Assembly: GCF_026914265.1 (NCBI RefSeq)
Contig: NC_069135.1
Span: 12,679,560-12,743,559 of the forward strand
DNA: 64,000 nt
From: Mya arenaria
Lineage: Eukaryota > Mollusca > Bivalvia > Myida > Myidae
Reading direction: 5' to 3'
The notes under the pieces are model-generated. The model was given only the letters and a program-made list of their open reading frames with translations. It made no database searches and had not been told where the DNA came from. Positions 1,587 to 63,944 of the stretch are shown piece after piece. Position 1 is the stretch's first letter, and each line of letters opens with the position of its first letter. A program made the position numbers and the translations under genes.

Positions 1587-4538
1587 TAATAATAAATATA
1601 GATACAATATGCATGGATAACAATAATACAAAAAAATCATCAATTATTTCACATACATGCAATCAATATGAAAAACAACCATCAACACTGCTTATTTTCC
1701 AAAGGCATTCATAATACAATTACTTTGATTACAAGCATTCTTTACTCAGAAATAAAACAACACATTAATATTTCATTTTGTTGGGTTAATACAAGGGCAA
1801 ACCAAAACACTATGTTCTCACTGTCACATGCTACCTGATTGATATGTATTTACCCCACAAAGTTTATCAGAAAGTGTTTGCAGATCTCATATAAATAATA
1901 TGTTTATTGCATATATTATTTCAGGTTCGTAAGCTTATAATGTCTCCTGTGAAGAACCCCAAGGTCGAGCTGGTCATTGTGATGTTCGTCGTTCCTCTGG
2001 TGGTCAACGTAAGTGACCTAGTATAGTGGTGTGGTCAACATAAGTGACCTAGGGTAGTGGTGTGGTCAACATCAGTGACCTAGCGTAGTGGTGTGGTCAA
2101 CGTCAGTGACTAAGTGTAGTGGTGTGATCAACGTCAGTGACCTAGTGTAGTGGTGTGGTCAACGTCAGTGACCTAGCGTAGTGTGTGGTCAACGTCAGTG
2201 ACCTAGCGTAGTGGTGTGGTCAACGTCAGTGACCTAGTGTAGTAGTGTGGTCAATGTCAGTGACCTAGCGTAGTGGTGTGGTCAACGTCAGTGACCTAGT
2301 GTAGTGGTGTGGTCAACGTCAGTGACCTAGTGTAGTGGTGTGGTCAACGTCAGTCTAGCCTAGTGGTCTAGCCTAGTGGTGTGGTCAACATCACTGACCT
2401 AGTGTAGTGGTTTGGTCAACGTCACTGACCTAGTGTAGTGGTGTGGTCAATGTCATTGACCTAGCGTAGTGGTGTGGTCAACGTCACTGACCTAGCGTAG
2501 TGGTGTGGTCAACGTGAGTGACCTAGCGTAGTGGTGGGGTCAACGTCAGTGACCTAGTGTAGTGGTGTGGTCAACGTCAGTCTAGCCTAGTGGTCTAGCC
2601 TAGTGGTGTGGTCAACATCACTGACCTAGTGTAGTGGTTTGGTCAACGTCACTGACCTAGTGTAGTGGTGTGGTCAATGTCATTGACCTAGCGTAGTGGT
2701 GTGGTCAACGTCACTGACCTAGCGTAGTGGTGTGGTCAACGTGAGTGACCTAGCGTAGTGGTGGGGTCAACGTCAGTGACCTAGCGTAGTGGTGTGGTCA
2801 ACGTCACTGACCTAGCGTAGTGGTGTGGTCAACGTCAGTGACCTAGCTTAGTGGTGTGGTCAACGTCAGTGATCTAGCGTAGTGGTGCGGTTAACGTAAG
2901 TGACCTAGCGTAGTGGTGCGGTCAACGTAAGTGACCTAAAATAGTGGTCACCGTAAGTGACCTAGCGTGGTGGTGTGGGCAACGTCAGTGACCTAGCTTA
3001 GTGGTGCGGTCAACGTAAGTGACCTAGCGTAGTGGTGCGGTCAACGTAAGTGACCTAGCGTAGTGGTACGGTCACCGTAAGTGACCTAGCGTAGTGGTGT
3101 GGTAAATGTAAGTGACCTAGTGTAGTGGTGCGGTCACCAACGTCAGTGACCTAGCGTAGTGGTGCGGTCAACGTCAGTGACCTAGCGTAGTGGTGCGGTC
3201 AACGTATGTGACCTAGCATAGTGGTGCGGTCACCGTAAGTGACCTAGCGTAGTGGTGTGGTCAACGTCAGTGACCTAGCTTAGTGGTGCGGTCAACGTCA
3301 GTGACCTAGCTTAGTGGTGCGGTCAACGTCATTGACCTAGCGTAGTGGTGCGGTCAACGTAAGTGACCTAGCGTAGTGGTGCGGTCACCGTAAGTGACCT
3401 AGCGTAGTGGTGTGGTCAATGTAAGTGACCTAGTGTAGTGGTGCGGTCACCAACGTCAGTGACCTAGCGTAGTGGTGCGGTCAACGTAAGTGACCTAGCG
3501 TAGTGGTGCGGTCACCGTAAGTGACCTAGTGTAGTGGTGTGGTCAATGTAAGTGACCTAGTGTAGTGGTGCGGTCACCGACGTCAGTGACCTAGTGTAGT
3601 GGTGTGGTCAACGTCAGTGACCTAGTGTAGTGGTGTGGTCAACGTCAGTGACCTAGTGTAGTGGTGTGGTCAACGGCAGTGACCTAGCATAGTGGTGTGG
3701 TCAACGTAAGTGACCTAGCGTAGTGGTGTGGTCAACATCAGTGACCTAGCGTAGTGGTGTGGTCAACGTCATTGACCTAGTGTAGTGGTGTGGTCAACGT
3801 CAGTGACCTAGTGTAGTGGTGTGGTCAACGTCATTGACCTAGTGTAGTGGTGTGGTCAACGTCAGTGACCTAGTGTAGTGGTGTGGTCAACGTCATTGAC
3901 CTAGCGTAGTGGTGTTGTCAACGTCAGTGACCTAGGGTAGTGGTGTAGTCATTGTTCTTTGCCTGCGTCTTATATACAGGGCCGTCTTATAATCAGTCAT
4001 TTACGGTAAGTGATGTAGCGTAGTGGTGTCTCAAATCTATTTACTTGTTCTCACAGTATGTGAATTAGTTTTATGTACAGAAATTAGACTGCAACATAAT
4101 AAAAAAATATAAACATAACACAGTGTTAAAGAGATAAATGTTTTTGTTATATTTTTGTTTTATTATTATTGTAACACTTTAATGTGTTCAATAACAACAA
4201 ATGTGAACACTTTTAAGGTGTTTCTTACAAAAAAGCTATAAAAGATGCTGATGTTATTGTGTTCAGGTGAAAATTGCATAAATCATACACTGGATTGATT
4301 TCAGGCTTTTATATTCTGGGTTGTTGACAATTTCCTAAAGAGAAATACCAAAAACACAAAGACAATCTATGTGAATGGTGATGACCACTCAGTCCGGTAC
4401 AACCGTGCAGAAAACTCTGCCCGACTGTACAACCGTATAGAGCGAATGGAGGATGGTGATTCTGACATCATCCTGACAGACGAGGATGCAGATCTGAGAC
4501 AGAGGCGTGGTGATGGCACAGATTTACTAATTAGCTGA
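311..4538 (+). CDS. STIMATE: STIMATE (TMEM110) store-operated calcium entry regulator, last four exons
   Basis: STIMATE is an ER multi-pass membrane protein that in vertebrates binds STIM1 and promotes Orai calcium entry at ER-plasma membrane junctions. The exons I place are 311-432, 889-1001, 1925-2008 and 4305-4538 (stop TGA 4536-4538). Each has AG/GT borders and the phases join cleanly. The translated pieces contain FLLDSTIGLFVIYLG, GEYG-QPAQCSAWMGQCGLYI, SPVKNPKVELVIVM and FIFWVVDNFLKR, which follow the vertebrate STIMATE order (FLLDxTxGxxxIY, FGEYGxPxQCxAWxGQC, NPxxNPDLKLAIVM, FWVVDNFLxR). Hydrophobic stretches match the family's membrane helices. The tail after the last helix is acidic (ERMEDGDSDIILTDEDADL), like the vertebrate cytosolic tail, but lacks its long basic end. 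The N-terminal exons lie before the window. The intron 2009-4304 is dominated by a 31-bp minisatellite made from the donor region. Identity is confident; the exact borders rest on splice signals only. Confidence 0.92.
1552..1596. repeat. AAT trinucleotide microsatellite
   Basis: A short interrupted run of AAT/ATA units inside a STIMATE intron (1002-1924). The rest of that intron is AT-rich, with nothing recognised. Confidence 0.9.
2000..4033 (+). repeat. 31-bp minisatellite derived from the STIMATE exon-intron junction, ~60 copies
   Basis: The period is 31 bp. The unit consists of the last nine exon bases (gtggtcaac) followed by 22 intron bases beginning with the donor gtaagtgacctag. The first unit is the real exon end plus donor (exon ends at 2008). 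The block runs almost unbroken to about 3955, and one isolated unit lies at about 4002-4033. Most units have gtcagt in place of gtaagt, but about fifteen by my count keep GTAAGT, clustered at 2890-3560, and two carry GTGAGT. A 227-bp higher-order block starting at 2351 recurs at 2578. There is no coding role. It sits wholly in the intron apart from the source unit. Confidence 0.95.
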
Positions 4539-7274: not shown

Positions 7275-9174
7275 CAGGAAAACATAAGAGTATTGTAATA
7301 TATGTACTCCCTGTAACTGACTAGTATACTGGACGTGGAAAACATAAGAGTATTGTAATATATGTACTCCCTGTAAATGACTAGTATACTGGATGTGGCA
7401 AACATAAAGAGTATTGTAATATATGTACTCCCTGTAAATGAGTAGTATACTGGATGTGGCAAACATAAAGAGTATTGTAATATATGTACTCCCTGTAAAT
7501 GACTAGTATACTGGATGTGGAAAACATAAAGAGTATTGTAATATATGTACTCCCTGTAAATGAGTAGTATACTGGATGTGGCAAACATAAAGAGTATTGT
7601 AATATATGTACTCCCTGTAAATGACTAGTATACTGGACGTGGAAAACATAAGAGTATTGTAATATATGTACTCCCTGTAAATGACTAGTATACTGGACGT
7701 GGAAAACATAAAGAGTATTGTAATATATGTACTCCCTGTAAATGAGTAGTATACTGGATGTGGCAAACATAAAGAGTATTGTAATATATGTACTCCCTGT
7801 AAATGACTAGTATACTGGATGTGAGTATTGTAATATATGTACTCCCTGTAACTGACCAGTATACTGGACGTGGAAAACATAAGAGTATTGTAATATATGT
7901 ACTCCCTGTAAATGACTAGTATACTGGACGTGGAAAACATAAAGAGTATTGTAATATATGTACTCCCTGTAAATGACTAGTATACTGGATGTGAGTATTG
8001 TAATATATGTACTCCCTGTAACTGACCAGTATACTGGACGTGGAAAACATAAGAGTATTGTAATATATGTACTCCCTGTAAATGACTAGTATACTGGATG
8101 TGAGTATTGTAATATATGTACTCCCTGTAACTGACCAGTATACTGGACGTGGAAAACATAAGAGTATTGTAATATATGTACTCCCTGTAAATGACTAGTA
8201 TACTGGACGTGGAAAACATAAAGAGTATTGTAATATATGTACTCCCTGTAAATGACTAGTATACTGGACGTGGAAAACATAAAGAGTATTGTAATATATG
8301 TACTCCCTGTAAATGACTAGTATACTGGATGTGGCAAACATAAAGAGTATTGTAATATATGTACTCCCTGTAAATGACTAGTATACTGGACGTGGAAAAC
8401 ATAAGAGTATTGTAATATATGTACTCCCTGTAAATGACTAGTATACTGGACGTGGAAAACATAAGAGTTTATAATATATGTACTCCCTGTAATGACTAGT
8501 ATACTGGACGTGGAAAACATAAGAGCTTATAATATATGTACTTCCTGTAAATGACTAGTATACTGGACGTGGAAAACATAAGAGTTTATAATATATGTAC
8601 TCCCTGTAATGACTAGTATACTGGACCTGGAAAACATAAGAGCTTATAATATATGTACTCCCTGTAACTGACTAGTATACTGGACGTGGAAAACATAAAG
8701 AGTATTGTAATATATAAGAGTTTATAATATATGTACTACCTGTAAATGACTAGTATTAATACTGGACGTGGAAAACATAAAGAGTATTGTAATATATAAG
8801 AGTTTATAATATATGTACTACCTGTAAATGACTAGTATTAATACTGGACGTGGAAAACATAAAGAGTATTGTAATATATAAGAGTTTATAATATATGTAC
8901 TACCTGTAAATGACTAGTATTAATACTGGACGTGGCAAACATAAAGAGTATTGTAATATATGTACTCCCTGTAACCGACTAGTATACTGGACGTGGAAAA
9001 CATAAGAGCTTATAATATATGTACTCCCTGTAACTGACTAGTATACTGGACGTTAAAACATAAAGAGTATTGTAATATATGTACTCCCTGTAAATGACTA
9101 GTATACTGGATGTGGAAAACATAAGAGTATTGTAATATATGTACTCCCTGTAACCGACTAGTATACTGGACGTG
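7275..9174. repeat. 61-bp minisatellite, about 31 copies
   Basis: The period is 60-61 bp, with unit core tattgtaatatatgtactcc followed by ctgtaaatgactagtatactggacgtgg. Several variants exist: units of 60 versus 61 bp, a shortened type lacking the gcaaacataaa piece (as near 7820 and 7990), and an 82-bp-type composite repeated three times at about 8700-8935. Blocks of variants recur in the same order, so the array has grown by multi-unit duplication. Because 60-bp units are divisible by three, the minus strand shows long repetitive open frames (peptide STSSILVIYREYIYYNTL per unit); I treat these as by-products. It lies between STIMATE and EFCAB12. Confidence 0.95.
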
Positions 9175-9418
9175 GTTACATGCATGATTATACAGATAGA
9201 GCCAAAATTGTTTGATTTGAATAAAATATGAATACAATTCACAATGTTTTGATTGGTCTTGTCCTGTGCCAGTATTTATAAAATAACTTCTGTCAGTTCC
9301 TAAATTATGTCATTTTCCTTGTTAAAGAATCTTGCTGGTCGAATGATTTAATTACTGAATAATTTCTGAATTACTTTATATTCATTGACCTTATTGAAAA
9401 ATACATACTTTCATTTTT

Positions 9419-10645
9419 AGCTCACCAGAGCACAAAGTGGTGAGGTATATTGAGATCGGTCTTTGTCCGTCGTCCGTCCGTCCGTCCGTCAACAATTGCT
9501 TAAAAAACATCTCCTCTGAAACTACCTGGCCAAATTCAATGAAACTTCACAGGAAGCTTCCTTGGTGTCCCTCTACAAAACAACAAGGGGTTACGATTGT
9601 TCAACAACAACAAAATGGCCGACTTCCTGTTTTGCTTGAAAAAGCATCTCCTCTGAAACTATCAGTCCAAATTCAATGAAACTTTACAGGAAGCTTCCTT
9701 GGGTGACCCTTTCCAAAAATACAACAAGGGGTCACAATTGATCAACAACAACAAAATGGCTGACTTCCTGTTTTGCTTAAAAAAAAAATCTCTGAAACTA
9801 TCACTCCAGGTTCAATGAAACTTTACAGGCAGCTTTCTTGGGTGACCCTTTTTAAAAATACAACAAGGGGTCACGATTGATCAACAACAACAACAACAAC
9901 AAAATGGCCGACTTTCTGTTTTGCTTTAAAAAACATCTCCTCCGAAACTACCAGTCCAAATTTAATGAAACTTTACAGGAAGCTTCATTGGGTGACCCTC
10001 TACAAAAATACAACAAGGGGTCACGATTGATCAACAACAACAACAACAGCAACAACAACAAAATGGCTGACTTCCTGTTTTGCTTTAAAAAAAAATCATC
10101 TGAAACTATCGCTCCAAATTCAATGAAACTTTACAGGAAGCTTCATTGGGTGACCCTCTACAAAAATACAACAAGGGGTCACGATTGATCAACAACAACA
10201 ACAAAATGGCCAACTTCCTGTTTAGCTTTAAAAAACATCTTCTCTAAAACTACCAGTCCAAATTCAATGAAACTTTACAGGAAGCTTCCTTGGGTAACCT
10301 TCTACAAAAATACAAGGGGTCGCGATTGATCAAGAACAACAACAATCTGGCCAACTTCCTGCTTTGCCTTAAAAACATCTCTGAAACTACCAGGGCAAAT
10401 TCACCGAAACTTACAGGAAGCTTCATTGCATGACCCTCTACAAAAAATACAACAAGGCATTGAGATTGAATAAGAAAATGGCCGACTTACTGTTTTGCTT
10501 TAAAAATATCCCTGAAACTACCAGGCCAAATTCAATGTAACTTTACAGGGAGCTTCATTGCATGACCCTTTACAAATATAAAACAAGACATCGTTGTGGC
10601 CCTTTGCTTAGGTGAGCGTTTTAGGGCCATTATGGCCCTCTTGTT
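9419..10645 (+). mobile_element. Helentron-like non-autonomous element with internal ~145-bp tandem repeats
   Basis: It begins agctcacc, followed by a (cgtc)n-rich head at about 9468-9490. It then carries about seven copies of a ~145-bp unit marked by acaacaaaatggccgacttc and by atgaaactttacaggaagct. It ends with ggtgagcg (10611-10618, the inverse of the start), then an 8-bp palindrome agggccat/atggccct, then ctcttgtta. The short 5' motif pairing with a 3' subterminal copy, the terminal hairpin and the lack of long inverted repeats resemble Helentron non-autonomous (HINE) elements. That family call is my inference. There is no coding capacity. Repeats of this kind are widespread in bivalves. 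Confidence 0.6.
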
Positions 10646-44200: not shown

Positions 44201-44423
44201 AAGACTGTAGTAGGACTGAAAATGTATCAGTGCACCCCCAGGGAATAAACACATGTGGGCACTTAATGGTTTAGATGTTAGCCAAGTATAGAATAAAGAG
44301 GTTTTGTAAAATGTTTAAAATAATCATTAAGCAATGGATTTTCTTGCATTTTCAGAGGAGTTAAACATGATTCCTGAAATTCAGAGTAACTACAATGAAC
44401 AGGCGTGGAGGTCTGATCTCTGA
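29254..44423 (+). CDS. MOV10: MOV10-type SF1 RNA helicase, 17 coding exons, 1138 residues
   Basis: MOV10 is a cytoplasmic 5'-3' RNA helicase linked to Argonaute/UPF1 mRNA regulation and restriction of retroelements. Coding exons are 29254-30029, 30308-30567, 30738-30990, 31170-31310, 31992-32154, 32438-32592, 33289-33465, 33794-33941, 34411-34572, 35001-35104, 37651-37862, 38167-38373, 40170-40381, 40750-40926, 41249-41337, 42303-42415 and 44356-44423 (TGA). All borders are GT-AG, every phase joins, and the total is 3417 nt. A C2H2 finger (C224, C227, H240, H246) precedes the family beta-rich region. Helicase motifs are GPPGTGKT (675-682), [14 protein letters not shown] (797-801), GDHKQLGPV (831-839), [28 protein letters not shown] and [14 protein letters not shown], so the active site looks whole. 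It is longer than human MOV10 (about 1000) through its N-terminus. MOV10L1 is the alternative. An acceptor ending at 29233 implies an upstream 5' UTR exon. Confidence 0.93.
35105..37650. other. MOV10 intron 10 (2.5 kb) with degenerate tandem repeat
   Basis: No exon was recognised. From about 36780 to 37330 there are degenerate copies of a unit marked by ttttgatgaaactt(c/a)at, gatcagtac/gataagtacc and gcattaaca(c/t)tggcat, an interspersed-repeat type common in bivalves. The rest is AT-rich. Confidence 0.6.
38394..39199. mobile_element. MITE in MOV10 intron 12 (actgtgaaatca family)
   Basis: The left end actgtgaaatcattta is the inverse of the right end aataatgattacacagt with small changes. The inner part contains cgtgg/cccacga pieces and three copies of aatggcccacgaacatt at about 39130-39180. 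It shares an internal block, cctaaatcgtctgca, with the element in intron 16. Non-coding. Confidence 0.65.
42528..43065. mobile_element. MITE in MOV10 intron 16 (same family as intron 12)
   Basis: The ends actaccgtgaaatca and tgatttcacagtagt are inverse with one mismatch. Inside them, cgtgaatttcgtgggttggc and ccacgaatttaagatccc on the left face aatccacgaatttaagaacc and cacgaaatt on the right. It is about 538 bp and has no coding capacity. The internal cgtctgca block reads in opposite orientation to that of the intron 12 copy. Confidence 0.78.
43200..44340. other. MOV10 last intron: CpG-rich island and short protein-like frame
   Basis: At about 43225-43380 two degenerate copies of a ctgtag...cctgggaaa unit occur. 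From about 43430 to 43850 the sequence becomes CpG-rich (for example gaccgcgttcggctacggcc), unlike its surroundings. It is followed by a plus-strand frame at 43984-44199 starting [20 protein letters not shown] and containing [13 protein letters not shown] and CIFC. The block looks like the 5' end of an inserted gene or DNA transposon; I could not name it. Confidence 0.4.
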
Positions 44424-44565
44424 CGTGGAGGTCCAATCTCTGACGTGGAGGTCCGATCGCTGACATGGAGGTCTGATCTCTGATGTGGAGGTCTGATCTC
44501 TGATGTGGAGTGCTGATCTCTGATGTGGAGGTCTGATCTCTGACGTGGAGGTCTCATCTCTAATG
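44404..44565 (+). repeat. 20-bp minisatellite spanning the MOV10 stop codon, ~8 copies
   Basis: The unit is gtggaggtctgatctctgac with small variants. The first unit encodes the last residues of MOV10 (W-R-S-D-L) and its TGA stop (44421-44423); the others run into the 3' UTR. Because 20 is not divisible by three, unit gain or loss inside the coding part would shift the frame. Confidence 0.92.
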
Positions 44566-52701: not shown

Positions 52702-55700
52702 TCAGAGGTGAAAGGGCGTGAGCTTGATGCGCTGTGAGTCGTCAGGGTGGAGGACTGCGATGCCGTAGACCAGGAGGAACTCGACATACAGCGGCCAGAA
52801 CCGGTGGTCAACCACAATGTATGGGTTGTTTGGACTGCTCATACACGCCTTCATCAACATCTGAAAGAGGAGAAGACAATGATGTTACAGGTAGATTTTT
52901 TTTTACACCTTACAACTCAATTACGATTAATTACATCTCAGTCAGTGGAAGGCTTATGTTTCAAGAAATCATGCCATAAGAAGCTTGAAATTGAATTGCA
53001 CACACTGCCTTGAAACCGGATGTCATTAATTGAAGAGGAAAATGAAATAACAAAAATCTTGCCAAATTGACGTGTTGCCTGTTTGAAGCAAGTAATTATG
53101 CCTACAGATATTGTATATGTAAGTTTAAACCTGATTGGATAATAAATTGTAAGTAAGAAATAATCTGCATAAGTTATAAACCAATTACATTTTACTGTTA
53201 AAGGGGCATTACTCTTAGAGTAAATGAGACAATTTATCCCATAATCAAACTTGGCCAATATGTTCTGCCATGCCGAACCATGATGGTCACCAAGTTCATC
53301 ATGGTTGGACAATGAACTTTTATGTCATTGTCTACACAAGGTTTTTATGACACAAACTGCACATTGATTATATAAAGGGAAACAGTACTAATTACCACAT
53401 GGGCAATGCAGATCATACCAACTTACTGAAGTAGTTGCCGACAGGGCACAGAACTAAAGACTAAAATAGTGGCTAATAAGCAAATTCATTGAATTGATAT
53501 CAGCCTCCAAATTGCATTAAGTAAATGGCATGGAGATCACGTCTTGGTGAAATATTCCAACCACAGCATGCAATACAGCTACAGAGTGAGGGACTCTAAT
53601 GAACATTGGATATGAGACACGAGTTTTTGCAATTTTTTTCTAATGAACATTGGATATGAGACAAGACAAAACTAAACGCTGCAATGCGTTGATAGGAGGT
53701 TTTTAATATGGGCAATTAGAAATTATAGCCAATTAATTTCTTTATGAGTTAGGAAAATGTAGCAGCCTAAAGTAATTGGATGAAAACCATTTTCCTGACC
53801 CCACCCCCTCAAAAGCAATCCCAAGCTAGCTCTTCACATAAGCTACCTACACACCAACTTTCATCACTATCCATCAATTACCACTTAAGTTATTGGGCAG
53901 AAACCATTTTTCTATTTTTAATTACAGTGACCTTGACTCCAGCACCCCTCAAAAGCAATTTCTAGCAAGCTCTTCACATAAATAACACGATTGTTTTCAA
54001 AATGGAAAATAATTATATGTAAACAGAAATAATGAAAAATCCTTAAAATATACAACAGTCTATTAGAAATCCTTAATATATTTTTAAAATCAAATTCAAA
54101 TCTAGACTTCATGTATTTCTAACTGGCATATTTAACTGCTCCTACATACATCTATGATGGACTTGAGTGGCAGAAGGTCGGCCAGTGTCTGTAGCTGTCC
54201 TCCCCTCTCCTCGCTACCCAACTGAAAACCAATGGTATGGTATGTTTATAGATATTTATTATTTTAATACTTAGTTGTTTTGCTTTGATTTTGCCAATGC
54301 AATCAATCTTGAGTTGTTTCCTGGGTAGAAAAGTAAGCCCCAGCTGGGACTGAAATCATTAACCTGTTTGTCGAGAGGAGATGCCTTATTTACCTCAAGG
54401 TAAATGTATTCTGAAGGTTGACAATATGCACTGTCACACCCTCAAGGCAGTTTATATCTATTTTATTATACTGAACAAAAACTAAAATTGTCAATTTCAT
54501 TGAGACAGTATTTAGGAGACTGACAACAAGGATATTAAATAATGTTTTGCCCTTGTTTATAAAGGACAAACAGCATCAATGAAAGTATAAATCAGAGACA
54601 GTGAGACAAATACCTTCTTTTTAACTCTGTTAAATGTCACTTGATCAGGAAGTGGAAATTTTCTGTCAAGAAAGTCTACCTGCAATATAGGGAAGAAAGT
54701 TGAAGTTGAAATCACTAAAGAAAATCACTTAACTTTCTACAAAACATGGTAAGGATATTAAATAAAACTTACAATCCAAATTAACAAACATTTAATCCAG
54801 AAAACACAATTTTATGCACTTATTAATATTCATTTATATAAACACTGAAAAAAAATGACTACATGTTGAATACGTTCTTGTATTTTCCTAACATATGATG
54901 ACATGTGCTTACCATTTGCTTTTTCTTTTCTTTGTCCGTGTCTTTCAATTTCTTTAATTTTGTCTGAACTCTGTCACAGACCCTGCAACAGAAAAATAAC
55001 CATAAAATAATATTTCATACAATGCATTCAACATGCAAATGTTACATGTTATAAACATGTTCCATGTTAAATTCAATAGCATCCAGACTTACCAAATAAT
55101 GACTCAAGCAATAATTATGTTTGAGAAAAATATGACCTCCGATAGGGAAAAGAGTGCTGTAACTTAACAATCTTCATGTCACCACTTTCCAGGGATCAGT
55201 TAATGGCATCTGTTATAAGACTTTCTCAGCATGTGAGGGATTGTGTGTGTGAGTCTGTTATAAGTCTTACCTGGCATGCAAGGGGTTGTGTGAGTCTGTT
55301 ATAAGTCTTACTCAGCATACAAGGGGTTGTGTGAGTCTGTTATAAGTCCTACTCAGAATGCAAGGGGTTGTGTGAGTCTGTTATAAGTCTTACTCAGCAT
55401 GCAAGGGGTTGTGTGAGTCTGTTATAAGTCTTACTCAGAATGCAAGGGGTTGTGTGAGTCTCTTATAAGTCTTACTCAGAATGCAAGGGGTTGTGTGAGT
55501 CTGTTATAAGTCTTATTCAGAATGCAAGGGGTTGTGTGAGTCTGTTATAAGTCTTACTCGGCATGCAAGGGGTTGTGTGAGTCTGTTATAAGTCTTACTC
55601 AGAATGCAAGAGGTTGTGTGAGTCTGTTATAAGTCTTACTCAGCATGCAAGGGGTTGTGTGAGTCTGTTATAAGTCTTACTCAGAATGCAAGGGGTTGTG

Positions 55701-58552
55701 TGAGTCTGTTATAAGTCTTACTCAGCATGCAAGGGGTTGTGTGAGTCTGTTATAAGTCTTACTCAGAATGCAAGGGGTCGTGTGAGTCTCTTATAAGTCT
55801 TACTCTGCATCTGAGGGATTGTGTGAGTCTGTTATAAGACTTACTCGGCCTGTGAGAGATTGTGTGAGTCTGTTTAATATAAGACTTTCTTAGCATGCAA
55901 GGGGTTGTGTAAGTCTGTCACAAGAATTTACTCAGCATGTGAGGGATTGCGTGCGTCAATCATAAGACTTTCTCAGCATGCCAGGGGTTGTGTGAGTCTG
56001 TTATAAGTCTTACTCAGCATGCAAGGGGTTGTGTGAGTCTGTTATAAGTCTTACTCAGAATGCAAGGGGTTGTGTGAGTCTCTTATAAGTCTTACTCTGC
56101 ATCTGAGGGATTGTGTGAGTCTGTTATAAGACTTACTCCGCCTGTGAGAGATTGTGTGAGTCTGTTTAATATAAGACTTTCTTAGCATGCAAGGGGTTGT
56201 GTAAGTCTGTCACAAGAATTTACTCAGCATGCGAGGGGTTGTGTGAGTCTGTTATAAGTCTTACTCGGCATGCAAGGGGTTGTGTGAGTCTGTTATAAGT
56301 CTTACTCAGAATGCAAGAGGTTGTGTGAGTCTGTTATAAGTCTTACTCAGAATGCAAGGGGTTGTGTGAGTCTGTTATAAGTCTTACTCAGCATGCAAGG
56401 GGTTGTGTGAGTCTGTTATAAGTCTTACTCAGAATGCAAGGGGTTGTGTGAGTCTCTTATAAGTCTTACTCTGCATCTGAGGGATTGTGTGAGTCTGTTA
56501 TAAGACTTACTCCGCCTGTGAGAGATTGTGTGAGTCTGTTTAATATAAGACTTTCTTAGCATGCAAGGGGTTGTGTAAGTCTGTCACAAGAATTTACTCA
56601 GCATGCGAGGGATTGCGTGCGTCAATCATAAGACTTTCTCAGCATGCCAGGGGTTGTGTGAGTCTGTTATAAGTCTTACTCAGCATACAAGGGGTTGTGT
56701 GAGTCTGTTATAAGTCTTACTCAGAATGCAAAGGGTTGTTTGAGTCTCTTTTAAGTCTTACTCGGCATGTGAGGGATTGTGCATGCCTGTTTAAAGACTA
56801 ACTCGGCATGTGAGGGATTGTGCGAGTCTGTTATAAGACTCACTGGGCATTTGAGGGATTGTGTGAGTCTGTTATAAGACTCACCGGGCATGTGAGGGAT
56901 TGTGCGAGTCTGTTATAAGACTTGCTCGGCATGTGAGGGATTGTGTGAGTCTGTTATAATTCTTACCCGGCATGTGAGGGATTGTGTGAGTCTGTTTAAA
57001 TGCTTACCTGGAATGTGAGGGATTGTGTGAGTCTGTTATAAGACTTACCCGGCATGTGAGGGATCGTGTGAGTCTGTTATAAGACTTACCCGGCATGTGA
57101 GGAATTGTGTGAGTCTGTTATAAGACTTACCTGGAATGTGAGGGATTGTGTGAGTCTGTTATAATACTTACCCGGCATGTGAGGGATTGTGTGAGTCTGA
57201 TATAATGCTTACCTGGAATGTGAGGGATTGTGTGAGTCTGTTATAAGACTTACCCGGCATGTGAGGGAATGTGTGAGTCTGTTACAAGACTTACCCGGCA
57301 TGTGAGGAAGTGTTTGAGTCTGTTATTAGACTAACTCTGCATTTGTGGGTTTTTGCTAGTCTGTTATAAGACTCACTCGGCATTTGAGGGATTGTTTGAG
57401 TCAGTTATAAGACTTTCTCGGCATTTGAGGGATTTTGCTAGTCTGTTATAAGACTCACTCAGCATTTGAGGGATTGTGTGAGTCTGTTATAAGACTTACT
57501 CGGCATGTGAGAGATTGTGTGAGTCTGTTTCTGTTAGTTTGGCCTCTGCAGCTTTAATGATGAGTCTCAACTCTTCTCTCTGCTTACACTCCCTGAAATA
57601 CAGACATAAAATTAAATATAAAAAGGAAATAAAACAATTAAAAGCAGATTCATTTTGATTTGAGTAAACGGCATTATGAGCATCTCATCTCAAATTCAGG
57701 TAACACTTATTATATTAATTCAAACTAAATCATATATCAACAATACCTATAAAGTAATGAAATATTATAAGTACACTGTACAATCAGTTTTTTTCAACAA
57801 TCTCAATCAGCGATTCATTTTGATATCTGCTTTAAGGAATATTTTGGACTCCCATTCTTCAAAAAAGTCCTCAGCAATATAATGGAGTCCAAGGTATTTT
57901 TTTGGCACAGATAACTTGAATATGATCATATGCATCCCGTAAATTCATGTGTTTAAGAAAAATGGGTCCTCAGGAAAAGCAAGGAGTAAAAGATGTGGGA
58001 TGTGCATCCAAATGAATCACTGAAAATTTACATAAAACAAACACGGTATAAAATAAAAGCAGTGCTTCATGTATCACCATAATACATTGCTACCAGCAAA
58101 TATATCACAGATCCTGACCTCTCATATTCCTGGTGCATGTCTGAACACTGTGCAGAGAGGAAGTCAACACACTCCTTGTACTGGGAGATCCGCTGTTCTG
58201 TGTCTGCACACAATTCATTGAACCGCACACCAGGGTCATTGGGAAGTACTGCAAACAAGGTATCTAACATTTACTATCTAATGCAATATGAAATTGGACG
58301 TACTTTATTCACGTTACTTAATGTAAACACAAATATATATTAAGACTTAAAATATAATTGCAACAAACAGGTTAAAGACATACACATAATGGATTCCGGT
58401 GTCTTTGTGACAGCTATCTCTGCCTCCAGCTGCTTACACCTGGCCCTGATGATGTCAATATCTGGCTGTACATTGCCCTCACTGCCAGCCTCTGTAGCTG
58501 GAATGTGTTTCTTCTCTGTCCTGGTGTGCAGTTCATGTAACTTCCCAGAAAG
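52702..58552 (-). CDS. CENPK: CENP-K, kinetochore (CCAN) subunit, seven exons
   Basis: CENP-K belongs to the constitutive centromere-associated network (CENP-H/I/K group) that links CENP-A chromatin to the outer kinetochore. Minus-strand exons in reading order are 58552-58384, 58248-58119, 57592-57500, 54982-54913, 54679-54614, 54221-54150 and 52860-52702 (stop 52704-52702). All have GT-AG borders and matching phases, giving 252 codons plus stop. The protein is mostly coiled coil (IIRARCKQLEAEIAVTKTPE, NELCADTEQRISQYKECV, CKQREELRLIIKAAEAKL). It then has FLDRKFPLPD, equivalent to the vertebrate FLExHFPLPD motif, and ends with NPYIVVDHRFWPLYVEFLLV and GIAVLHPDDSQRIKL, matching the vertebrate DPYVKxxDSFWPPYVELLLRNGIALRHPEDPxRIRL tail. 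The N-terminus (perhaps 20-50 residues) lies upstream. It is convergent with MOV10. The intron 57499-54983 holds a junction-derived minisatellite. Confidence 0.9.
53775..53985. repeat. Two degenerate copies of a ~139-bp interspersed-repeat unit in a CENPK intron
   Basis: Marked by gaaaccattttcctgacc/cagaaaccatttttc and by cctcaaaagcaat at 53807 and 53946. Confidence 0.6.
55209..57530 (-). repeat. 41-bp minisatellite derived from a CENPK exon-intron junction, ~57 copies
   Basis: Read on the minus strand, the unit is 28 bases of exon end (acagactcacacaatctctc then acatgccga) followed by 13 intron bases starting with the donor gtaagtcttat. The first unit is the real exon end (exon 57592-57500, donor at 57499). 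The array then fills the intron down to about 55209. Nearly every unit keeps GTAAG. Units near the exon mostly read GTAAGT or GTAAGC, some preceded by CAG, which makes a strong donor; distant units read GTAAGA. Distant units also share aaccccttgcat-type changes, and multi-unit blocks recur (for example 55795-55930, 56090-56230 and 56455-56600). Confidence 0.95.
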
Positions 58553-58921: not shown

Positions 58922-60156
58922 ATGCCCCCGAAGCTGGGCATATTAAAATCACACCGTCCATCCGTCTGTCCGTCCATGTGTCCGGCTCAATAACTTGTGT
59001 CTGGGCTGTAACTTTCTCTTGTATAGACAGATTTTAAAATAACTTGCCACATGTGTTTGACACACCAAGACAATGTGTTGCGTGCAAGACCCGTGTCCCT
59101 ACCTCTAAGGTCAAGGTCACACTTAGTGTTATTCACAATGGAATGCTGCATATATCAGGACATAGACTATAGGTTTTCGTGTCCGCACTGTTCCTTTCTC
59201 TTGTATGGACAGATTTTAAAAATGACTTGCCACATGTGTTCGACATACCAAGACGACGTGTGCAAGACCCGTTCCCTATCTCTAAGGTCAAGGTCACTCT
59301 TAGTGTTTATTCACAATGGAATGCTGCATATAAGGACATAGAGTGTAGTTTTTTTGTCCGGGCTGTTACTTTCTCTTGTATAGACAGATTTTAAAATGAC
59401 TTGCCACATGTGTTCGACATACCAAGACGATGTGTCCCTAGCAAGACCAGTGTCCCTACCTCTAAGGTCAAGGTCACACTTAGGTGTCTATTCACAATGG
59501 AATGCTGCATATAAGGATAAGAGTAAAGGTTGTGGTGTTCGGGCTGTAACTTTCTCTTGTATGGATAGATTTTAAAATGACTTGCCACATGTGTTCGACA
59601 TACCAAGACGACATGTCGCATGCAAGACCCGTGTCCCTACCTCTTAGTTCAAGGTCACACTTAGGTATTTATTCACAATTGAATGCTGCATATAAGGATG
59701 CAGAGAATAGGTTGTCGTGTCCGGGCTGTAACTTTCTCTTGTACGGACATGTTTAAATATAACTTGCCACATGTGTTTGACATACCAAGACGGCGTGTCG
59801 CGTGCAAGACCCGTGTCCCTACCTCTAAGGTCAAGGTCACACTTAGGTGTTTATTCACAAGGGAATGCTGAATATAAGGACATAGAGTATAGGTTGTTGT
59901 GTCCGGGCTGTTACTTTTTCTTGCATGCACAGATTTTAAAATAACTTGCCACAGGTGTTCAACATACCAAGACCACGTGTTGCGTGCAAGACCCGTGTCC
60001 CTACCTCTTAAGTGAAAGATACACTTTATATACGATTGTGTGTCGTATGCATGATCCACATGCATACATCAAAGGTCAGTGTTTGAGCTTTAACATTTCA
60101 TGTTTCCTTGTTCAGGTCAATGTCACATTCGGGGGCATTCGTCACACACTCTTGTT
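58922..60156 (+). mobile_element. Second Helentron-like element with internal ~170-bp tandem repeats
   Basis: It begins atgcccccgaa and ends with the exact inverse, ttcgggggcat (60128-60138), about 18 bases before the end ctcttgtt. A (cgtc)n-rich head (ccgtccatccgtctgtccgt) follows the start. About six copies of a ~170-bp unit make up the middle, marked by acttgccacatgtgttcgac and by ctacctctaaggtcaaggtc. The overall plan matches the 9.4-10.6 kb element. Non-coding. The Helentron assignment is my inference; repeats of this type are widespread in molluscs. Confidence 0.6.
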
Positions 60157-63372: not shown

Positions 63373-63944
63373 TATATATATATAATGACCAGATTTCAGT
63401 TCATAAGCAGAATAGTCAGCTAAAGGCATGCAATGATTAACCAGATGCTATTTAATCAATATGACAAAAACAGCCAGCTTTAAGTTCTGACAGAATACCC
63501 CTGGTAGAATAGTAAGATTTAAGTCCATAAGTAGGTTAGCCAAATGTTGCTCAATGAAGAGAATGTAGCCAGATATCAGTTTATAAGAGGAATAGTGGGT
63601 TCATGAGTAGAACAGTTTGGTGAACATGGTGTCATGCGTGTTTTGACAGATATCTGCCTGGGGAAAAAGCATACAAGCATCCTCACTGCTTCTTTGTTTG
63701 TGCCTGCAAGTATAAAACATGCCATAAGCATGGTAAAACATCATCCTTTACAATCATACATTTATGATTTCTATTCAAAATCTTTTTTAAGTTTGTCTAG
63801 GAACATATCAAAAACCCATGGGAAATGGCTGTATAATTTGATTTAGTAACGTTTTTCTATGTAAAAAGCTTATTTTATTTTAGTAAACCACATTTCTCAA
63901 CTTCCATTCAATAAGAATAACTATTATATTATATTTAATATTAC

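Follow-up and report, generated by a model that had tools for sequence, protein, structure and literature searches.

A 56-Unit Array of Donor Look-Alikes in a CENPK Intron of the Clam Mya arenaria, Most Likely a Neutral Mirage Minisatellite

Introduction

Minisatellite-like tandem copies of intron/exon boundaries have been reported in the globin genes of lancelets (PMC3087553), and troponin C and PGBD5 have been added to the lancelet genes that carry them (PMC3902484). They are called "mirages," a name that comes from the Adh3 case as cited in PMC3087553, where the Adh3 units are given as 10–72 bp and the haplotypes of the globin gene BflGb6 as having 6 and 3 units of 150–160 bp. The data presented there suggest that regular splicing is undisturbed by mirages, and the same source discusses intron gain by tandem duplication with AG/GT proto-splice sites (PMC3087553). 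No recognised case from a mollusc was found in our literature search, which was made mostly at the level of titles.

Here we analyse a 41-bp array in CENPK of the bivalve Mya arenaria, within a window of 64,000 nucleotides to which all positions refer unless stated otherwise. Like the reported mirages of lancelets (Adh3, the globins BflGb6 and BflGb9, troponin C, and PGBD5), it is made of boundary-spanning tandem copies with splice signals (PMC3087553, PMC3902484), begins at an authentic boundary and has undergone concerted evolution inside the cluster (PMC3087553), and its unit length lies within the range given for Adh3 (PMC3087553). Unlike them, it is hosted by a clam, on the donor side of a gene for a centromere protein; it has 56 units, as against the 6 and 3 reported for BflGb6, and 13 of its copied donors outscore the authentic one on a mammalian-type weight matrix. 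By analogy, the CENPK array can be regarded as a long, donor-side clam example of a mirage, and mirages may thereby prove to occur in a mollusc as well as in lancelets.

Other systems are comparable in part. Recursive splice sites have an acceptor and a donor back to back, as do units 8, 10, 13, and 55 of the clam array, which read CCAG|GTAAG; unlike recursive splice sites, those of the clam are born of a minisatellite and give no sign of conservation, and their acceptor and donor roles are putative. A Drosophila study reportedly described intron gain through tandem duplication of exon segments, and the clam array likewise starts from the tandem duplication of a sequence bearing splice signals, but no new intron position is seen, the array beyond unit 1 lies inside an existing intron, and the read-throughs tested all run into a stop.

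Mirages offer a natural test of the choice that the spliceosome makes of one donor among dozens of equal or better ones, spaced a few dozen bases apart. What looks notable in the present case is the length of the array, its position in a CENPK gene of which no second copy was found, and the presence of donors that are apparently better than the one that keeps the frame. Use of any later donor would lead to one truncated protein from single-locus CENPK, so mistakes of splicing could be counted easily in RNA. If neutrality is confirmed, a gene can bear a 2.3-kb ladder of cryptic donors that selection has not purged.

The CENPK Gene and the Exon That Bears the Array

The minus-strand gene is CENPK. 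Its 252-residue spliced model matches Pfam PF11802 (CENP-K) over profile positions 26–262 with an E-value of 6.7e-33 and 114.8 bits, the gathering score being 27.2, and it also matches solved CENP-K chains (best E 2.6e-20); the first 176 residues, including the array-bearing exon, reach 26.7 bits alone, just under the cut-off. When the model was searched against the clam's own genome, an assembly of 1,216,080,610 bases in 18 contigs, all seven of the seven matches fell at the CENPK locus. The exons and the donor around the array are as follows.

57500..57592, minus strand: CENPK coding exon of 93 nt, of which the last 29 bases make up the exonic part of unit 1 of the array, with acceptor ...TATTTCAG|GG, an in-frame join with the flanking exons, and the Pfam CENP-K match of the spliced model
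57494..57502, minus strand: presumed authentic donor CGA|GTAAGT, with the exon end at 57500 and the intron from 57499
54913..54982, minus strand: next CENPK exon after the array-bearing intron, 70 nt, with acceptor ...TGTTGCAG|GG
54614..54679, minus strand: CENPK exon following 54982–54913, 66 nt, with an in-frame join

One open frame runs across the upstream exon, which ends GAATATGAGAG, the exon 57592–57500, and the next two, so that the joins read EYERECKQREELRLIIKAAEAKLTETDSHNLSHAE|VCDRVQTKLKKLKDTDKEKKKQM|VDFLDRKFPLPDQ..., and at the junction of the array-bearing exon with the next one the reading is ...TETDSHNLSHAE|VCDRVQTKL.... The in-frame joins and the Pfam match of the model bear out the claim of an earlier note on this DNA, made from the sequence alone, that the first unit of the array is the genuine exon end at 57500. 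The same note had pointed out that the exon, read through its donor, meets TAA at once (GAG-TAA) and that extended use would truncate the protein. This is indeed what is found: moving the exon end to any one of the 55 later donor positions gives one identical truncated end, ...TETDSHNLSHAE, with a common stop in 55 of 55, which falls upstream of the C-terminal part that a solved CENP-K fragment (7pb4) matches. Since no donor but that of unit 1 leaves the reading frame open across the junction with the next exon, unit 1 would remain the working exon end, and the donor at 57500 is presumed, on the evidence of the frame, to be authentic and mainly used. The CENP-K alignment spans this exon end, in a region of weak conservation and with a gap of 2 residues, and thus the coding end probably preceded the array.

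Anatomy and Expansion of the Array

The array and a duplication inside it are located at the following positions.

55209..57529, minus strand: 41-bp minisatellite of 56 units, by TRF and unit alignment, with about 29 exon-derived and 12 intron-derived bases counted from the donor
56038..56611, minus strand: block duplication, 56611–56412 being the same as 56237–56038 (200 of 200 bases identical, offset 374 bp)

TRF gives the array as 55209–57529 with 56.1 copies and 85% matches, while wraparound alignment places 56 units from 57528 to about 55214 on the minus strand. An array of copies of an exon end with its donor is therefore present as the earlier note had described, although its count of about 57 was slightly too high; likewise the exon/intron make-up of the unit stands, but the split into 28 exon bases, GTAAGT, and 7 more is replaced by 29 exonic (28–30 depending on the register) and 12 intronic bases. 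The tandem unit spans the exon/intron boundary, unit 1 consisting of the exon end at 57500, whose donor use is deduced from the frame, and 12 intron bases; it overlaps the end of the coding exon 57592–57500, and the array begins within that exon.

Among the 56 units there are 39 distinct sequences, with one subfamily formed by units 1–19 and another by most of units 20–56, the latter marked by C, T, G, T, and A at columns 14, 19, 20, 26, and 34 (counted from 0). Copies resembling unit 1, with one or two differences, lie inside the array as units 15, 25, 34, and 41. The array as a query against the clam's own genome (1.216 Gb) matched one place and none elsewhere, and a 142-base query of the exon and the array start matched 40 places, all within this exon and array; the search skips very common words, and these match counts are lower bounds.

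Concerted evolution within the cluster is seen in the sharing of sequence, at the level of both units and blocks. Twenty-seven of the 56 units are identical to some other unit, and seven offsets have 196–200 matches in a 200-base window: besides the perfect block at 374 bp, the best windows reach 198 of 200 at 292 and 666 bp and lie within 196–198 at 82, 328, 707, and 994 bp. Taking the best window for each offset in this one haplotype, none of the seven starts closer to the exon than 56731. Near-identical blocks and shared units together argue for recent block expansion, which fits the exception that the earlier note had allowed to its argument for preservation, namely that the array might be kept uniform by such expansion.

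Content and Strength of the Donor-Like Sites

Many units, not all, carry splice signals. Exact GTAAG is found in 37 of the 56, and the claim that nearly every unit keeps it was too strong; in the others the motif is GAAAG (7 units), GTGAG (4), GTAAA (3), GTTAG (2), GCAAG (1), ATAAG (1), or GTAGG (1). Several units had been said to have CAG before GTAAG, which is correct for four of them (8, 10, 13, and 55). Donors were scored with a mammalian-type weight matrix rather than one trained on clams. On this matrix the score exceeds 0 in 48 of 56 units, and the real donor, at 7.23, is surpassed by 13 of the 55 copies and equalled by one, the top donor being CAG|GTAAGT of unit 10 (12.9). The dense ladder of plausible donors over 2.3 kb that had been proposed is supported. 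Four other donors taken as those of CENPK, one of them (at 63944) only presumed to be, score 4.5, 5.7, 8.1, and 9.2, so that the real donor is an ordinary one. Pairing with the U1 5′ end is at least equal to that of the real donor in 17 of 55 copies, and sites scoring at least as high as the real donor number 15, counting that donor itself, in the 2322 bases of the array, compared with 23 in the 17,679 surrounding bases of the same strand. One run of stronger sites has the following position.

56961..57297, minus strand: units 6–14, nine donors of the form CGG|GTAAG or CAG|GTAAG, all nine outscoring the real donor

Three of these units, 8, 10, and 13, read TTCCAG|GTAAGY, where an acceptor-like and a donor-like site stand back to back. 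Together with unit 55 they have CCAG|GTAAG, the last base before the donor being at 57213, 57131, 57008, and 55271, respectively. Pyrimidines make up 69% of the sequence upstream of it in units 8, 10, and 13, the same as for the exon's own acceptor, and are more abundant at the next two acceptors (75 and 88%).

Conservation of the Donor Positions

The earlier note had argued that GTAAG is preserved beyond what neutral decay would leave, and had proposed comparing its divergence with that of the other unit positions. The comparison was run, and GTAAG is not significantly less divergent, which is one half of the outcome that the note had named as refuting its argument. In raw counts, non-majority bases per column number 3.8 for GTAAG and a mean of 7.0 (median 3.0) elsewhere, a few subfamily columns accounting for the high mean; five columns drawn at random have counts as low as GTAAG with P = 0.30, and among contiguous windows, 16 of 41 do not exceed it. 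Parsimony, applied to a tree built from the 39 distinct unit sequences, infers 2.4 changes per column in GTAAG against 1.92 elsewhere, or 1.71 elsewhere when two CpG columns are left out, and in a set of 40 bootstrap trees the two averages come to 2.28 and 2.08, GTAAG falling below the non-CpG remainder in 9 of the 40. The T of GT alone has five inferred changes, two of which are inferred back-changes. Because the units share descent and sequence may pass between them, all these counts are approximate.

The strength of the donors was considered in the same manner. The observed mean score is 4.89, compared with 2.9 and 3.2 for random placement of the inferred changes on two trees; over 1000 trials such placement equals or exceeds the observed mean 22 and 29% of the time, which is not significant. 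For the whole donor nonamer 30 changes are inferred where about 17–18 are expected (P of 0.002 or less); 18 of them weaken and 12 strengthen the donor, with no clear drift. The CpG at −3/−2 accounts for 11 of the 30, and for this reason we do not claim selection against the donors from the fast change of the nonamer, although the excess leaves room for donor selection in one direction or the other. In sum, raw divergence and mean donor score lean toward preservation without significance, no significant trace of purifying selection is seen on the array donors, and selection for GTAAG is unsupported by the raw counts, parsimony, the 40 bootstrap trees, and the random-placement control on two trees. 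The earlier observation is mostly right, and it is its argument for special preservation that fails.

Origin and Possible Role of the Array

The likeliest reading is that of a neutral mirage minisatellite, and we hold it highly probable that the array is a recent, essentially neutral one, with donor look-alikes downstream of a working exon end. A 41-bp stretch over the 3′ end of the CENPK exon and the start of the intron would have been duplicated in tandem, and slippage or unequal exchange would then have produced the 56 units within the intron; unit 1 would have stayed the functional exon end, the remaining donors being look-alikes carried along, and GTAAG would be frequent through the youth and block spread of the copies, not through selection. 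We infer both the direction from exon to array and the neutrality, direction and age being read from the clam sequence, that of a single species. In favour of this reading are a donor core no more conserved than the other columns, block copies of up to 200 of 200 bases with 27 of 56 units identical to another, and the abundance of tandem arrays in the window and the genome; by analogy, the lancelet mirages, which share the anatomy and are reportedly harmless to splicing, would point the same way. Against it count the 13 of 55 copies that outscore the real donor, which one would not expect of sites both harmless and freely accessible, the tilt, non-significant as it is, of raw divergence and mean donor score to preservation, and the excess of changes in the nonamer.

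In another, unlikely explanation the array masks itself, many of the copied donors being hidden in hairpins with the next unit and the array made tolerable thereby. Six bases separate the intronic GTAAGTCT from the exonic AGACTCAC with which the next unit starts, and the two are almost reverse complements of each other; among 20 local folds a hairpin of 7 pairs with a 6-base loop is predicted in units 1, 2, 4, 6, 7, 10, 11, 12, and 15 and one of 8 pairs in units 16 and 17, with stabilities down to −11.6 kcal/mol; among the same folds it is missing in units 8, 9, 13, 14, 19, and 20. Although 53 of 56 donors are predicted to be less accessible than the median 9-mer of 54700–57900, a stretch that is mostly the array itself, the strong units 8 and 13 are predicted to be more accessible than the real donor, and units with A at +6 stay at low accessibility via other predicted pairings, and the masking is therefore not the work of a single retained structure. 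Accessibility is below that with permuted flanks in four of five statistics (150 permutations; P of 0.027 for the mean, 0.013 for the median, 0.053 for units 2–19, and 0.047 for units 20–56), but the outcome is marginal given that five statistics were tried, no such effect is seen for the real donor (P = 0.35), and the permuted flanks, which omitted the array insertions, were slightly unlike those of the accessibility prediction.

Given donor competition and nonsense-mediated decay as general processes, the ladder could be a functional decoy, the array donors vying with the weaker real one for U1 snRNP and giving stop-bearing CENPK transcripts at a level tuned by the length or accessibility of the array. 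The stronger copies, those that bind U1 equally or better (both on the matrix and U1 sequence used here), the density of strong sites relative to the surroundings, the identical stop of all 55 extensions, and the single locus of CENPK would suit such a role; we nevertheless regard it as very unlikely, since the donor positions are not significantly less divergent than other columns, splicing is reportedly undisturbed by the lancelet mirages, and the real donor is predicted to be more accessible than 11 of the 13 stronger decoys. More improbable still is that donors stronger than the authentic one form a ladder of variable number, partly masked by hairpins between adjacent units and bearing back-to-back acceptor/donor sites, that sets the amount of productive CENPK mRNA; if true, kinetochore dosage would vary with the length of the minisatellite. 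We are extremely doubtful, too, that the array came first, as an intronic minisatellite captured by the exon with replacement of the original exon end: unit 1 shares its family with the other units, four of which differ from it by one or two bases, but the exon end lies within the CENP-K alignment with a small gap, frame and phase are intact, and copies of the unit elsewhere in the genome were not found by a search that gives lower bounds. That the copy number of the array, itself real, was inflated or collapsed in the assembly is decidedly improbable; near-identical blocks assemble poorly, whereas 39 distinct sequences among 56 units and an assembly that is presumably PacBio-based, as far as PMC10663159 indicates, argue against it.

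Other Donor-Headed and Tandem Arrays

Genome-wide, triplets of AGGTAAGT with gaps of 12–42 bases give 1801 matches, as against 1224 for the reversed pattern, and tandem triplets of strong donors are common; the counts are of matches, not arrays, dozens being possible in one array. Twelve regions were taken among the matches listed on contigs C1–C3, one of them over 10 kb only, and several other listed places look to be of the same families. An open frame of at least 25 residues up to the first strong donor was found in six of the 12 regions (L041, L043, L044, L045, L046, and L049), and in four of these, L041, L045, L046, and L049, the frame runs, by eye, mostly through the repeats themselves. 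At 2397–2683 of L043, on the minus strand, an exon-like frame ends in AAAG|GTAGGT at the start of a 16-bp array of GTAGGT/GTAAGT donors, with an acceptor-like site upstream and, downstream, an open frame in matching phase (both by eye). The joined product had no match in Pfam, and L043 is, from its sequence features, a candidate for a second donor-headed array in the clam genome.

The 64-kb window itself is rich in minisatellites, TRF listing 35 rows, some overlapping, which include four other arrays or array clusters of over 500 bp. At 2000–3951 a 31-bp unit is repeated in 62 copies (TRF) with a GC content of 52%, compared with about 32% in the adjoining 2-kb bins, and long tandem arrays also occupy 7277–9175 (61-bp unit) and 9496–10587 (units of about 131–144 bp). 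The eight copies of a 20-bp unit at 44404–44561 (TRF) are open in several minus-strand frames. A further tandem array at 58997–60010 (182-bp unit, 5.6 copies by TRF) adjoins the CENPK exon at 58552 on its upstream side, and would be intronic to CENPK should the presumed exon that ends at 63944 be part of that gene.
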